Positions 40,279 through 45,191 of a stretch of 64,000 bases of DNA are shown one piece after another (position 1 is the stretch's first letter; each line of letters starts with the position of its first letter). Source of the stretch: Plantactinospora sp. BC1 (lineage in GTDB: Bacteria > Actinomycetota > Actinomycetes > Mycobacteriales > Micromonosporaceae); the NCBI RefSeq assembly GCF_003030345.1, contig NZ_CP028158.1, forward strand, positions 4,464,001 to 4,528,000. The letters are read 5' to 3'. Position numbers and translations under genes: made by a program. The notes under the pieces are model-generated. The model made no database searches, was not told the origin of the DNA, and saw nothing but the letters and a program-made list of their open reading frames with translations.

Positions 40279-40610
40279 GAAATCTGGGCACCCTGCTCAC
40301 CGCGCTCGCCCTGCTGGCGGCCGTGGTGACCCTGCTGACCACCCGGTCCTGGCGTACGGCGCTGCGGGTGCTGCTCGACCTGCTGGTGGCGGCCGGCCTG
40401 ATCCGGCTGGCCACCCTGGAGAGCTGGACCGATCTCGCCGGTGCCGCGATCGTCATCGCGCTCCGTCAGCTCGTCTCGGCGGCCCTGCTCGGCTCCGGCC
40501 GGCCCGGCGACGGGGCCGGACCGGCCGGAGCCCGGGTGGTGGTGGGATGGTCGAGGGTGAGGTGGCCGGGAACGGGTACGGGCCGGACCCGTTCCCGACC
40601 GACCTCCTAG
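40275..40610 (+). CDS. Small membrane protein
   Basis: A 111-residue protein with about three helices (LLTALALLAAVVTLLTT, LRVLLDLLVAAGLIRLA, AAIVIALRQLVSAALLG) and a basic Gly/Arg-rich tail. GTG start overlaps the DUF1622 stop (GTGA), so the two are coupled. I recognise no named family, although such proteins commonly pair with DUF1622. Its stop codon is shared with that of the convergent xylanase gene in CTAG. Confidence 0.6.
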   Translation: MRNLGTLLTALALLAAVVTLLTTRSWRTALRVLLDLLVAAGLIRLATLESWTDLAGAAIVIALRQLVSAALLGSGRPGDGAGPAGARVVVGWSRVRWPGTGTGRTRSRPTS

Positions 40611-41767
40611 AAGCCGCGCCTGCTGTTCGGGTCCGAGGCGACGGCGAGTACCTGCTGGAGACCCCGGTAGGCGGCCTTGGGCTGGAGGTTCTCGTCCAGC
40701 GGGGTGGCCGAGCCCTGGCCCTCGAAGAAGCCGGGAACCCAGGAGTACTTGTCGGTGAAGCCCCACACCGTGAACATCACGCAGCGCGGGGTGAGCAGGC
40801 AGGCCTGGAGCAGGGTGTTGAAGCTACCCACCTGACCGGCCTCCTTGTAGGTGTCGACCGGCAGGAAGAACCGCACGTCGACCTCGGTGAACGCGGTCTC
40901 CAGGCCGAGCCTGTCGAAGCGGGCCAGGTTCTGCGGGGCGTCGATCGGCAGCGGGTACTGGAGGTCGAGGTGACCCTGGAAACCCATGCCGTGCAGCGGC
41001 ACCCGCTGCTTGCGGAGCTGCTTGGCCAGCTCGTAGTAGGCGGTGCTCTTCGGGTTGATGTTGTCGATCGCGTAGTCGTTGAGGAAGAGCTTGGCCCTCG
41101 GGTCGGCGGCGTGCGCCCAGCGCAGCGCGTCGGCGATGTAGTTCGGGCCGAGGTGCTGGCGGAAGATGGTGTCCCGGAGCACCGGGGCGTCGCCGTCGGT
41201 GAACGCCTCGTTGACCACGTCCCAGGCCCGGACCTTGCCCCGGAAGTGCTTCACCACGGTGGTGATGTGGTTGCGCACGATCTCACGCAGCTCGGCGGAG
41301 TCGATCGAGCCGTCGGCGACGCCGTCGGTCAGCCAGGCGGGGGCCTGACTGTGCCAGAGCAGCGTGTGGCCGTGCACCTTCTGTCCGTTGCGCCGGGCGA
41401 ACTCGATCAGCTCGTCGGCCGGGCCCCAGTTGTACTGGCCCCGGGTCGGCTCCAGCTCGGCCCACTTCATGACGTTCTCGGCGGTGACCGCGGAGAACTC
41501 CCGGGCCGCCCGCTCCCGGTACGGCGCGTCGGTGGCCAGCGCGTTCATGTCGATCGCGGTACCGATGCCCAGGCCGTGTTTCCTGGCCAGTACCCGCAGC
41601 GGAAGGTCCGTGGACGTCCCACCGGGTACGTGTGCGGCGGAGCCGCCCTTGGTCGCAACGGCGTTGATCGGCGCCTGGGTCGGGGCGGCGGTGGCGGTCG
41701 ACGGCCCGACCGTGTAGAGGGCGCCGGCCGCGAGCACGCCGACCAGGGCTATCCGAAGTTTTCTCAT
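40607..41767 (-). CDS. Secreted GH10 endo-1,4-beta-xylanase
   Basis: A 386-residue secreted enzyme that cleaves xylan. The signal peptide is MRKLRIALVGVLAAGALYTV followed by STATAAP with a likely signal-peptidase cut after ATA. The GH10 barrel shows AEFSAVTAENVMKW-like (REFSAVTAENVMKWAELEP), HTLLWHSQAPAWL, the acid/base Glu in WDVVNEAFTD, and the nucleophile Glu in LETAFTEVDVRF. There is no carbohydrate-binding module; single-domain. ATG start. Two palindromes lie 90-150 bp upstream, likely regulator sites. The upstream neighbour on the same strand is a sigma/solute-binding operon that may control sugar-related genes. Confidence 0.93.
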   Translation of the reverse strand: MRKLRIALVGVLAAGALYTVGPSTATAAPTQAPINAVATKGGSAAHVPGGTSTDLPLRVLARKHGLGIGTAIDMNALATDAPYRERAAREFSAVTAENVMKWAELEPTRGQYNWGPADELIEFARRNGQKVHGHTLLWHSQAPAWLTDGVADGSIDSAELREIVRNHITTVVKHFRGKVRAWDVVNEAFTDGDAPVLRDTIFRQHLGPNYIADALRWAHAADPRAKLFLNDYAIDNINPKSTAYYELAKQLRKQRVPLHGMGFQGHLDLQYPLPIDAPQNLARFDRLGLETAFTEVDVRFFLPVDTYKEAGQVGSFNTLLQACLLTPRCVMFTVWGFTDKYSWVPGFFEGQGSATPLDENLQPKAAYRGLQQVLAVASDPNSRRGF

Positions 41768-41858: not shown

Positions 41859-41879
41859 TACCCGAACGCGGTTCGGGTA
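41859..41879. promoter_or_regulatory. Candidate operator: 9-bp inverted repeat upstream of the xylanase
   Basis: TACCCGAAC (41859-41867) and GTTCGGGTA (41871-41879) form a perfect inverted repeat around GCG. It lies ~92 bp upstream of the xylanase start. It may bind a LacI-type sugar repressor, or act as a terminator hairpin for the sigma operon, though no T run follows on the minus strand. Confidence 0.5.
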
Positions 41880-41900
41880 CAAATTTGCTGCCGGGCACAC

Positions 41901-41916
41901 TGTCGGAGATCCGACA
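41901..41916. promoter_or_regulatory. Second inverted repeat upstream of the xylanase
   Basis: TGTCGGA (41901-41907) and TCCGACA (41910-41916), perfect 7-bp arms around GA. Placed between the sigma operon stop (41983) and the xylanase promoter. The compact dyad resembles a transcription-factor site more than a terminator. Confidence 0.4.
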
Positions 41917-41982: not shown

Positions 41983-43434
41983 TCAGCCGGCCTCCGCCAT
42001 CGCCACCGCGAACTGCTCCGGGGTCAGCTTCCCCTGGAACAGTCGGCGCAGGTTGTCGAGGAGCACCGTCGCCGCCGCCGGCTCCAACGCCTGGTCCCAG
42101 GCCAGCCCGTACGACGGGGCCCGGGTCACCAGCTCGTGCACCGAGGTGGCGAACTCGGCGTGCCGGGTGCCCCGCAGCCGCTGCGCCGCATCCGTCACCG
42201 GCGGCACCTCGCCGTCGGCGATCAGGGCGTCCAGATAGTCGTCCGACGCCACGGACCGGACGAACTCCAGCGCCGCCTCCGGGTGCCGGCTGCCGGCGAC
42301 CACCGAGAAGTAGTGGGTCGGCACCCCGACCAGGTCGGCCGGGTCCCCGGCCCCGCCGGAGACCGCCGGGAAGGGCACGAAACCCAGGTCGCCGGTGGCC
42401 ATGAAGTCCGGGTTCCGGGCGAGCTGGGTCGGATACTCCCAGGTACCCATGAGCTGCATCGCGGCCCGCCCGCTGGCCAACCGCCCGGACGCGTCGCCGT
42501 CGTCGTAGGCGACGGAGGCGAAGTCGGCACCGAAGGCGCCCCGCTCGACGAGGGCCCGTACCTCCCGCAGCGCCTGCGTCACCGCCGGCTTCGACCAGGC
42601 GCCGGGACGGCCGGCGACGATGTCGGCGGTGGTACCCGGACCGCCGATCCGCTCGGCGAGGTACATCACCCACATCAGCTCGGTCCAGCCCTGGGCACCG
42701 CCCAGCGAGATCGGGGTGATGCCGCGCGCCTTGAACGTCTCCACCAGGGAAAGCAGCTCGGCGTAACTGCCCGGCGGCCGTACGCCGGCGTCGGCGAAGA
42801 CACCCCTGTGGTAGAAGAGCACCACCGGGTGGGTACCGCCCATCGGGATGCCGTACTGCCGACCGTCCACCACCCCGCCGGCCAGCGTGCTGGGCAGGAA
42901 CCGGCCGGCCACCCCCGGCTCGTCCCGCAGCGCGGTCAGGTCGACGAGCATCCCGTCCCGGGCCAGCCCGGCCAGGCTCGCCCCGCCCCAGGTGGCGAAG
43001 ACGTCCGGCCCCTCCGACGAGCCGATCCCGGTACGCAGCTTCTGCTTGTACTCCTCGTTGCCGAAGGTGACGAGGTCCACGTCGACCCCGGGGCCCTGGT
43101 TGTGCCGGTCCACCAGTTTCCGCAGCGCGGGTTCGTCGCCCGGCTGGGTGATCGCCCAGACCCGGATCGTCCCGGACGCCCCGTCGGCGGGCGGCGGCAC
43201 CGACGGCACCGTCCGGGTCAGCTGCGCCCCGGTGAGGGTCACCGCCAGCACCAGGACCGCCGTCGCCAGGCTGGCCAGCCCGGCCCGCTGCCGACGCCTG
43301 CGCCGGTAGCGCCGGCGGATCGTGGTGATCGCCTCCGGATCGGCCGCCGGCAGGGCGTGCTGTGCCTGGGTCAGGGTGGCGGCCAGCTCCCGGTCGAGCC
43401 GCCCGTCGTCCACCGGACCTACCTCGTCAACCAC
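41983..43434 (-). CDS. Anti-sigma-like membrane protein fused to a sugar solute-binding domain
   Basis: A 483-residue protein in two parts. Residues 1-50 are a short cytoplasmic tail with helical sequence and an Arg cluster (RRRYRRRRRQR). Residues 51-70 are one membrane helix (AGLASLATAVLVLAVTLTGA). From ~88 to the end is a full family-1 extracellular solute-binding domain: IRVWAITQPGDEPALRKLVD, DVDLVTFGNEEYKQKLRTGI, DVFATWGGASLAGLARDGML, YGIPMGGTHPVVLFYHRGVF, GGAQGWTELMWVMYLAERIG. There is no lipobox. GTG 43434 overlaps the sigma-factor stop by 8 bp, so it is the coupled partner of that sigma factor. I infer a one-protein sugar sensor controlling the sigma factor. Alternative: a membrane-tethered binding protein without signalling. 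No ABC permease is adjacent. Confidence 0.75.
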   Translation of the reverse strand: MVDEVGPVDDGRLDRELAATLTQAQHALPAADPEAITTIRRRYRRRRRQRAGLASLATAVLVLAVTLTGAQLTRTVPSVPPPADGASGTIRVWAITQPGDEPALRKLVDRHNQGPGVDVDLVTFGNEEYKQKLRTGIGSSEGPDVFATWGGASLAGLARDGMLVDLTALRDEPGVAGRFLPSTLAGGVVDGRQYGIPMGGTHPVVLFYHRGVFADAGVRPPGSYAELLSLVETFKARGITPISLGGAQGWTELMWVMYLAERIGGPGTTADIVAGRPGAWSKPAVTQALREVRALVERGAFGADFASVAYDDGDASGRLASGRAAMQLMGTWEYPTQLARNPDFMATGDLGFVPFPAVSGGAGDPADLVGVPTHYFSVVAGSRHPEAALEFVRSVASDDYLDALIADGEVPPVTDAAQRLRGTRHAEFATSVHELVTRAPSYGLAWDQALEPAAATVLLDNLRRLFQGKLTPEQFAVAMAEAG

Positions 43435-43930
43435 GTCCGCTCCGAATCGTCGAGTCGGCGGGCGCCAGGTGCGCCCGTAGCACGCGCTTGGCCCTCGCGT
43501 ACCTGCTGGAAACCGTGCCCGGAGGCTCGTCGCAGATCCCGGCGATCTCGCTGAACGTGTAGCGGTACAGCACGTGCAGCACCACGACCGTCCGTTCCGC
43601 CTTGCCGAGCTGCTGCAACGCCTGCCACAGCGCGCCGTTGCCCACCGCCGTCGCGGCCGGATCGTCGGACCGGTGGTCGACGTCGTCGGTAAGCACCTCA
43701 CGACGCCACCGCCGCCACCGGCTCACGTTGCGGGTCACGATGACCTGCCGGGCGTACGCCTCGGGATTCTGCCCGGCCTTCGGCCACCGCTGCCAGACCT
43801 CGACCACCGCGATCTGGGCCAGGTCGTCCGCCTCGGCCGCGCTGCCGCTGATCAGGTACGCGAACCGCCGCAAAGCGTCCAGCCGGGCCCGAGCGAACTC
43901 CTCGGCGTCGCTGAACGCACCGTGGGCCAC
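43427..43930 (-). CDS. ECF sigma factor, SigE (SAF) family
   Basis: A 167-residue extracytoplasmic-function sigma factor. Region 2 is RRFAYLISGSAAEADDLAQI and VVEVWQRWPKAGQNPEAYAR; region 4 is LQQLGKAERTVVVLHVLYRY, TFSEIAGICDEPPGTVSSRY, ARAKRVLRAHL with the DNA-recognition helix. Region 3 is absent, as in all ECF factors. GTG start with GGAGGAG upstream. The downstream gene overlaps by 8 bp and encodes its membrane partner. Likely targets include its own operon and perhaps the xylanase; that is inference. Confidence 0.92.
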   Translation of the reverse strand: MAHGAFSDAEEFARARLDALRRFAYLISGSAAEADDLAQIAVVEVWQRWPKAGQNPEAYARQVIVTRNVSRWRRWRREVLTDDVDHRSDDPAATAVGNGALWQALQQLGKAERTVVVLHVLYRYTFSEIAGICDEPPGTVSSRYARAKRVLRAHLAPADSTIRSGRG

Positions 43931-43986
43931 AGGCTCCTCCTCCGGGCTCCTAACGCTGGCCGCCGTCGATTCGCTGCACCTCGAAC

Positions 43987-44910
43987 CTAGCGGTCCCGGT
44001 GTCCCGGATCACCTGCCGAGGCGGTGCTCCGCCGCTCGGCGAGTTCGACGGCGTTGCGGAACAGCATCGCCACGGTGGTCGGGCCGACCCCGCCGACCCG
44101 GGGCGTGATCGCCCCGGCGACCGAGGCGCACGACTCGTCGAGGTCCGGCAGCAGCCGGCGTCCGGCGTAACGGACCCCGCCGCCGATCGCGACCGCGCCG
44201 GGCCGCAGGTGCTCCGGCCGCACGATCCCGGGTACGCCCACCGCGGCGACCACGATGTCGGCCCGCCGGGTGTGCCGCTCCCAGCCGGGTACCCCGCTGT
44301 GCACCACGGTCACCGCCGCGTCGGCGGTGGGCCGCTTCTGCCCGAGCAGCAGCGACAGCGGCCGGCCCAGGGTCGTACCCCGGCCGAGGATCACCACGTC
44401 GCGGCCGGCGACCGGGATGTCGTGGAAGGCGAGCAGCGCCTCGATCCCGGCCGGGGTGCACGGGACCGGGCCGGGCAGCCCGGCGGCGAGCCGGCCCAGG
44501 CTCTCCGGGTGCAGCCCGTCGACGTCCTTGGCCGGATCGATCGCGGCGATCGCCGCCTGGTAGTCGAGGTGGCCGACGGGGTGCTGCACCAGGATGGCGT
44601 GCACCGCCGGGTCCTCGTTGAACTCGCGGATCGCCCGGAGCAGGTCCGCCTGGCCGGCGGTGCCGGGCAGGTGGGTGTGCGGCGACGCGAAGCCGAGGTC
44701 GGCGGCGCGTTGCTGCTTCATCCGGATGTAGCCGGCGCTGGCGGAGTCGTCGCCGACCAGGATCGTCGCCAGGCTCGGCACGACACCGGCGCGGCGCAGC
44801 GCGGCGACCCGGGCGGCGACGTCGGCGAGGACCGCCTCGGCGACGGGGCCGCCGGGCAGCAGCCGGGCGGTGCGTACCTCGGCGTCGGTGGGGGTCTCGG
44901 AGACGGTCAC
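43987..44910 (-). CDS. folD: Methylene-tetrahydrofolate dehydrogenase/cyclohydrolase
   Basis: A 307-residue bifunctional folate enzyme interconverting methylene-, methenyl- and formyl-tetrahydrofolate. SAGYIRMKQQRAADLG carries the catalytic Tyr/Lys pair, HLDYQAAIAAIDPAKDVDGL the substrate loop with the conserved Asp, and VILGRGTTLGRPLSLLLGQK the NADP loop. The end reads GAITPRVGGVGPTTVAMLFR (usually PGGVGPMT; the variation marks a divergent member). GTG 44910 is chosen: AGGAAG is just upstream and is embedded in the hairpin of a ZTP riboswitch. Expression should rise when ZTP accumulates, i.e. when formyl-folate is scarce. Confidence 0.92.
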   Translation of the reverse strand: MTVSETPTDAEVRTARLLPGGPVAEAVLADVAARVAALRRAGVVPSLATILVGDDSASAGYIRMKQQRAADLGFASPHTHLPGTAGQADLLRAIREFNEDPAVHAILVQHPVGHLDYQAAIAAIDPAKDVDGLHPESLGRLAAGLPGPVPCTPAGIEALLAFHDIPVAGRDVVILGRGTTLGRPLSLLLGQKRPTADAAVTVVHSGVPGWERHTRRADIVVAAVGVPGIVRPEHLRPGAVAIGGGVRYAGRRLLPDLDESCASVAGAITPRVGGVGPTTVAMLFRNAVELAERRSTASAGDPGHRDR

Positions 44911-45018
44911 GGGGCTTCCTCTCGACGTGGAAAGCCCCGGCGCCCAGGCGTACGGCGACGGAGTCGAGCCCGGCGGTCGCTTCCCGGTGGTGCTCCACCC
45001 GACGCCAGTCACCACCGC
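44911..45018 (-). promoter_or_regulatory. ZTP (pfl-motif) riboswitch with Shine-Dalgarno-masking hairpin
   Basis: On the minus strand the leader reads GGTGACTGGCGTC, GGGTGGAGCACCACCGGGAA and GCG, then after a variable stem GTACGCCTGGGCGCC (44939-44953). GUGACUGGCG, the GGGUGGA-ACCACCGGG pseudoknot helix and CGCCUGGGC are the conserved blocks of the pfl/ZTP riboswitch, known upstream of folD, glyA and purH. Between the aptamer and the start, GGGGCTTTCC (44929-44938) can pair with GGAAGCCCC (44911-44919), with one bulge. That second arm holds the ribosome site and touches the GTG, so control is probably at translation. Confidence 0.88.
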
Positions 45019-45191
45019 CACGCCGAGCCTACCTCCGGGCCCGCCACCATCGGCGGTCGTGCTCGGCTGCCGCCGTCGCGAGCTGGGCAGACGTGAGCCC
45101 GGCCCGCGTCCCTCCGGCTCGACTCGCGGGTGTCGTACCGGAGTCGTACCGTTTTCTCCAGGTGCTCCTTCGACAAGGACGGTGAGGGCGG

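Follow-up and report, generated by a model that had tools for sequence, protein, structure and literature searches.

A minus-strand operon of Plantactinospora sp. BC1 probably encodes a one-step transmembrane sugar sensor, in which a membrane-anchored sugar-binding receptor holds an extracytoplasmic function (ECF) sigma factor until the binding of xylo-oligosaccharides frees it and switches on an adjacent xylanase gene; we give this reading a probability of roughly 0.7. The operon lies in the window, a stretch of 64,000 nucleotides (contig NZ_CP028158.1, positions 4,464,001 to 4,528,000) from an 8.33 Mb genome assembled as one contig. The observations behind the reading are sequence-based and comprise the architecture of the receptor, its co-inheritance with the sigma gene, its lost transport features, its conserved binding site and a DNA element shared between the xylanase gene and the sigma genes of other genera.

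In the proposed circuit, a short, Arg-rich and probably two-helix cytoplasmic tail would act as an anti-sigma factor and keep the sigma factor bound at the membrane. Xylo-oligosaccharides would close both lobes of the outer domain, and this closure would alter the membrane helix or the tail, directly or via proteolysis, with release of the sigma factor upon ligand binding. Free sigma factor would then drive transcription of the operon that encodes it and, in the Plantactinospora-type genus, of the GH10 xylanase gene next to it; the element shared by such genes is observed, and we infer that this sigma factor recognises it. The xylanase would in turn yield more ligand, giving a positive loop.

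Organisation of the locus

The genes are transcribed in the order sigma gene, receptor gene and, 215 bp on, GH10 xylanase gene (Table 1). An earlier note on this DNA, made from the sequence and its open reading frames, had described an 8-bp overlap between the sigma and receptor genes, and we located it at 43427-43434. The same note had called the sigma factor 'SigE-type ECF', a label that held in its second half. Pfam families Sigma70_r2 and Sigma70_r4_2 and NCBIfam TIGR02937 all scored above cut-off and sigma region 3 was absent from the Pfam matches, which identifies an ECF sigma factor of the sigma-70 family. The 'SigE-type' half was less secure: TIGR02983 (SigE-fam_strep) was the best NCBIfam family at 106.1 bits, under its curated cut-off of 141.55, and 'SigE-like' is therefore the safer term. 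The secreted xylanase expected next door is indeed present, with an N-terminus that looks by eye like a signal peptide. Also as described, no ATP-binding cassette (ABC) permease gene was called across the window; this and the later permease-gene absences carry a limit, because the gene-level caller, applied to 33 lipoprotein control loci, detected a permease in only 21.

Table 1. Genes, receptor segments and DNA elements of the sigma factor-receptor locus (window coordinates)
Feature	Position	Strand	Remarks
SigE-like ECF sigma gene	43427..43930	-	167 aa, GTG start; sigma regions 2 and 4; Pfam/NCBIfam scans and orthologues
Receptor (fusion) gene	41983..43434	-	483 aa, GTG start; tail, one membrane helix and BxlE-like extracellular sugar-binding domain
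Cytoplasmic tail, residues 1-50	43285..43434	-	Predicted helix 10-27, then Arg-rich helix from 33 into the membrane helix
Membrane helix, about residues 51-69	43228..43284	-	Hydropathy; model pLDDT there 44-55
Sugar-binding domain, residues 89-483	41986..43170	-	Pfam, alignment to BxlE, model, fold match
GH10 xylanase gene	40607..41767	-	Pfam PF00331, E=3e-96; proposed target; adjacent to receptor gene in 7/7 same-genus loci
Composite element TGTCGG-N6-GACA-N9-GCAGCA	41886..41916	-	Upstream of xylanase; no second exact copy found in the 8.33 Mb genome
Putative xylanase core promoter GCAGC...GCGTT	41865..41891	-	Overlaps the 3' end of the composite element
Putative sigma-gene promoter GCAGC...GCGTT	43952..43977	-	47 nt upstream of start; without upstream palindrome

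The receptor resembles a xylobiose-binding transport protein

The earlier note had proposed a membrane helix at residues 51-70, in close agreement with hydropathy, followed by a complete family-1 sugar-binding domain. Pfam SBP_bac_1 matched residues 102-399 (E=5e-39), and all Pfam matches of the receptor above cut-off were to solute-binding families. Direct reading of the protein sequence revealed no lipobox, as had been noted. In an AlphaFold2 model (mean predicted local distance difference test score, pLDDT, of 86) a two-lobed binding domain followed the helices, and its best solved fold match was the xylobiose complex of BxlE (3vxc; TMt 0.95, rmsd 1.6, 41% identity). BxlE is the xylobiose-binding lipoprotein of Streptomyces thermoviolaceus (3vxb, 3vxc), and fold matches ranked one to seven all came from xylan or xylo-oligosaccharide systems. 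The xylobiose site of BxlE is lined by Trp204, Tyr264 and Trp286 (PMC8233162). Receptor residues W250, Y310 and W332 align with these stacking aromatics; the two tryptophans are invariant over the 14 fusion proteins described below and Y310 is kept in 12 of them. The match to BxlE lends sequence support to the earlier suggestion that xylo-oligosaccharides are the ligand.

The fold and the three stacking aromatics are therefore those of a BxlE-type transport binding protein. In contrast to BxlE-kind homologues, which are lipoproteins mostly followed by permease genes, the receptor has a cytoplasmic tail and a membrane helix, with neither lipobox nor adjacent ABC permease genes. These features support an origin of the outer part as a BxlE-kind ABC-transporter binding protein that lost its lipid anchor and adjacent permeases and would now serve in sensing.

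The modelled tail consists of a helix (residues 10-27), a break at P29 and one long helix (33-68) that is Arg-rich at first and hydrophobic later. Model confidence, taken per ten-residue block, was moderate over residues 11-50 (pLDDT 67-79) and low in the membrane helix. Seven tail residues (L21, A24, A27, P29, R40, R42 and R48) are invariant over the 14 fusions, and none of the 14 has a Cys among its first 50 residues. The receptor matched no anti-sigma family in the Pfam or NCBIfam scans, nor the RsgI N-terminal domain at E up to 1. The lack of a known anti-sigma match would suit a tail that acts as a positive partner, needed for stability or activation of the sigma factor and not for its inhibition. 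Against this, the tail with its two predicted helices has a layout similar to that of the short cytoplasmic part of the class II inhibitor CnrY (PMC7406223), a likeness that the model suggests in outline only, and we regard a positive role as improbable.

The receptor and sigma genes are inherited together

A survey of 300 genomes of the family Micromonosporaceae, as the earlier note had proposed, found the fusion with its tail in 14 (among the matches listed); seven of these genomes belong to the window's genus and the other seven to two further genera. The same 14 genomes carry an orthologue of the sigma factor at 66-100% identity (66-96% in the 13 others, next best 41%), and the sigma gene adjoins the fusion in every one. 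Since the same pair recurs in 14 of 300 genomes at this level of sigma identity, it is not a chance association. Among the named carrier records, three Plantactinospora and 'Micromonospora sp. HM5-17' match genomes placed in the window's genus; the others are Micromonospora (two), Nucisporomicrobium, Amorphoplanes (two) and Jidongwangia, and the last three genera we take together as 'Actinoplanes-type'.

The homologues read beyond the 14 fusions are of the transport kind. Excluding a few matches that start at query residues 16-34 (such as G213, G022 and G217), we read the 27 next-best binding-domain loci of the same genomes. All 27 encode lipoproteins with a lipobox, 24 have a permease motif downstream and none contains the carriers' sigma gene, with one (L071) having a 30% match nearby. 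A fusion without the sigma gene, which would have counted against the earlier note, did not occur among the homologues read. Among 394 genomes of the class, only that of the window gave a sigma match above 44%. The binding domain was found at E up to 1e-100 in 13 of 296 genomes of the phylum, including the window's, and in the nine read of the other twelve it belonged to a lipoprotein with no sigma gene in the stretch examined (9/9). In a collection of 84,980 species, we examined the best 80 of 161 loci. Ten were sigma-linked (these overlap with the 14 family carriers) and none of the ten has a lipobox. The 70 sigma-less loci all have one (69 by script and L173 by eye), 66 have a downstream permease motif and one (L151) has a distant sigma match (30%) nearby. 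Similarly, 15 of the 17 other family-1 binding proteins in the window's own genome were read (L012 and L013 were excluded), and each has a lipobox but lacks a SigE-like gene within the stretch examined.

Nor is a permease a consistent partner of the fusion, the other finding that would have told against the earlier note. A permease gene was called in one of the 14 carrier loci, on the opposite strand. In that locus (L072, also L142) a downstream permease-motif match was rejected, as its long frame does not match the genes called there, and a second motif, upstream on the opposite strand, was confirmed as a gene. A membrane-anchored binding protein could in principle still feed sugar to a distant, unlinked ABC permease, its sigma gene being merely co-transcribed, and conservation of the domain as a binding protein would agree with this. 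The same sigma gene alongside in 14/14 loci, the missing lipobox in the ten sigma-linked loci of the species collection, the absence of a called permease from 13 of 14 carrier loci and the conserved receptor tail speak against such a role, and we consider it very improbable.

A tree that included 16 hand-chosen lipoprotein homologues placed the 14 fusions on one side of a single branch with 100/100 support. The simplest history is a single capture of a transport protein that was thereafter kept with its sigma gene.

One DNA element precedes the sigma gene or the xylanase gene

At each of the seven loci from the window's genus, the composite element TGTCGG-N6-GACA-N9-GCAGC(A/G) lies upstream of the xylanase gene; at each of the seven from the other two genera, it lies upstream of the sigma gene. 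It ends 113-119 nt from the xylanase start and about 36-42 nt from the sigma start, the latter distance being approximate as the sigma starts in these seven loci were estimated from alignment offsets. This element, common to the xylanase gene and the sigma gene of other genera, gives sequence support to the earlier view of the xylanase as a logical target. A shorter core, GCARC-N12-18-GCGTY, occurs in 19 of the 21 regions upstream of these genes (12/14 sigma genes and 7/7 xylanases) and could be an ECF-type -35/-10 pair with the palindrome just upstream. An alternative pair, GAYA and CGAYG as -35 and -10, was dropped because most xylanases are without it.

A search of the 300 family genomes for the full element returned 17 matches in 16 genomes: one at the cassette of each of the 14 carriers and three exact matches in two non-carriers (G264 twice and G066), while the backward control gave two. 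With up to two mismatches, the composite element had 20 sites in the window's genome and 22 in the control; therefore, only the exact copy counts. The sigma promoter core at up to two mismatches had 11 genome sites against four in the backward control, the sigma promoter itself being the sole exact one.

The palindromic part of the element, TGTCGG-N4-CCGACA, is a dyad that a sigma factor does not need, and it is missing from the Plantactinospora-type sigma promoter. Both facts would fit a circuit in which the receptor controls the sigma factor and the sigma factor has other targets, with the xylanase run by a separate palindrome-binding regulator. However, the palindrome stands at one fixed distance from GCAGC, whether before the sigma gene or before the xylanase gene. 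We saw no regulator gene shared by the loci (neighbours were not exhaustively typed) and think a separate regulator of the xylanase unlikely.

Two further features of these promoter regions were seen. In L059 another sequence, which contains an inverted repeat (GGAAGGGCCCC...GGGGGCCCTTCC), takes the place of the missing sigma promoter element, perhaps as a small insertion. Positions 41861-41877 of the window form a local palindrome (CCCGAACCGCGTTCGGG) that overlaps the proposed xylanase -10; its right part alone is conserved in the other six same-genus loci.

The proposed output and perhaps the ligand differ between lineages

The two closest xylanase homologues outside the window's genus (L275 and L276, 80% and 73% identical) come from genomes without the sigma pair and bear, by eye, TTTCG-type inverted repeats upstream, which resemble LacI-family operators. 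These repeats in sigma-pair-less close homologues suggest that control of the xylanase may have been exchanged between lineages. A fuller history, which we propose tentatively and at somewhat less than even odds, is that a modular, sigma-holding membrane partner acquired a transport binding protein as its outer domain on a single occasion, which gave rise to a private circuit with essentially one full element per genome. In loci of the Micromonospora and Actinoplanes types that element would precede the operon itself. The Plantactinospora-type genus would have it before the secreted xylanase, where the two closest outside homologues have TTTCG-type repeats.

In the five Actinoplanes-type loci (L064, L066, L068, L069 and L072) a conserved secreted protein of ~535 aa is encoded directly downstream of the receptor. 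Its gene starts 18-29 bp past the receptor stop (measured in four loci, with L068 read by eye), and the protein is weakly alpha/beta-hydrolase-like, below Pfam cut-offs and with no hit for L072. It is possibly the enzyme output of the switch in these genomes. As the next gene there is hydrolase-like and not a xylanase, the output differs between lineages and the ligand may too. The receptor might then bind an oligosaccharide other than xylo-oligosaccharides, possibly depending on the genus, an idea to which the replacement of Y310 in L066 and L069 would also be suited. With the seven best fold matches drawn from xylan or xylo-oligosaccharide systems, and the xylanase adjoining the pair in every same-genus locus, a different ligand seems to us a minority prospect.

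Points that weigh against the sensor

Several observations weigh against a sugar sensor of this design. The model is only moderately sure of the receptor tail, and the tail does not have the form of a class I anti-sigma domain (ASDI): two helices are predicted, the second entering the membrane. By comparison, ASDI is a four-helix cytoplasmic domain, in some cases with an Hx3Cx2C zinc motif (PMC7406223). In the ligand site, Y310 is not universal. The permease gene of L072 is nearby, even if on the opposite strand, contig ends shorten several carrier loci, and the xylanase is not a neighbour in the seven loci of other genera. As for the promoters, the sigma genes of the Plantactinospora type have no palindrome; L059 is also without the core, L060 is one base off and L061 has its core at a greater distance from the sigma gene (73 nt). 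Another regulator might use the palindrome. The background rate of the core, 0.04 per 260 nt, is flattering because the pattern was drawn from the same sequences, and a lack of this core before all 23 of the other xylanase homologues examined would be expected about as often as not.

Co-occurrence of the element with the genes is not independent evidence either, because they are physically linked. Two facts are stronger: one element stands before two different genes, and it was found before none of the 23 other xylanase homologues examined. The 23 are the non-carriers in a sample of 30 loci, the other seven being carriers, and the sample was drawn from 141 genomes that had a match. Each homologue was read over 360 nt counted from the alignment start, which often lies 30-57 residues inside the protein and makes the stretch partly coding. 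Taken together, the interpretation of the earlier note is largely supported.

The outer domain sets the pair apart from other sigma partners

The window's genome has 18 places with a SigE-like sigma gene, two of which (L111 and L113) lack a downstream hit. The 16 with a readable downstream frame are the present pair and 15 others (L097-L110 and L112), in which the next open frame follows at gaps of -50 to +51 bp. In all but L106 of these 15, the downstream frame encodes a membrane helix, mostly within residues 37-70 and commonly after an Arg-rich stretch, and the outer parts vary and look unlike the binding domain. The partner in L106 looks by eye LytR-CpsA-Psr-like. The three nearest relatives of the sigma factor found outside the 14 carriers (39-43% identity) have the same layout, with a 4-bp overlap and other outer parts. 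Because most other SigE-like sigma partners read here have the same layout with different outer parts, the binding domain, and not the arrangement, is the special feature of the pair; the outer domain of the sigma partner seems to have been exchanged.

CnrY, with which the tail was compared above, is not known to have a sugar-binding outer part. The known system nearest in logic is RsgI of Clostridium thermocellum, where the GH10 outer domain belongs to RsgI6 and where SigI6 reportedly controls xylanase genes, going by a study title. RsgI6/SigI6 differ from our pair in that the outer domain has an enzyme fold and the sigma factor is SigI, whereas the window receptor carries a transport binding protein and no RsgI domain was found in it. 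RsgI, a membrane anti-sigma factor, combines a short N-terminal part of about 57 residues with a single membrane helix, a plan that the receptor would share, and RsgI outer domains include a GH10 domain targeting xylan and cellulose (PMC12203970). Actinobacterial ECF52 and ECF53 (e.g. SCO4117) likewise join ECF signalling to a membrane part and to outer domains predicted to bind carbohydrates (PMC10766802, PMC8999054). Their sensor is fused directly to the sigma factor, whereas in our pair it is encoded by a separate, overlapping gene and has a binding-protein domain. Our literature search found no binding-protein sensor on an anti-sigma factor (PMC2632651 proved unrelated and PMC8103513 offered nothing about sugars); the ECF classification literature was covered in part, and this is no proof of absence. 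We regard the pair as a variant of an arrangement already known, in which an ECF sigma factor has a membrane partner.

If the sensor operates as proposed, it would directly exemplify an ABC-transporter binding protein turned sigma-factor sensor, in which the ligand class, the receptor, the sigma factor and a likely target promoter can all be read from sequence. Such a case would suggest that the numerous uncharacterised actinobacterial pairs of a SigE-like sigma factor and a tail-membrane sensor are modular receptors, in which the outer domain tells what is sensed. The pair would also offer a compact sugar-to-transcription switch.

Upstream of the sigma gene in the window lies folD (tetrahydrofolate dehydrogenase/cyclohydrolase; 43987-45021, same strand). 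Absent from this position in L059, the end of folD also lies upstream of the sigma gene in L056 and L060.
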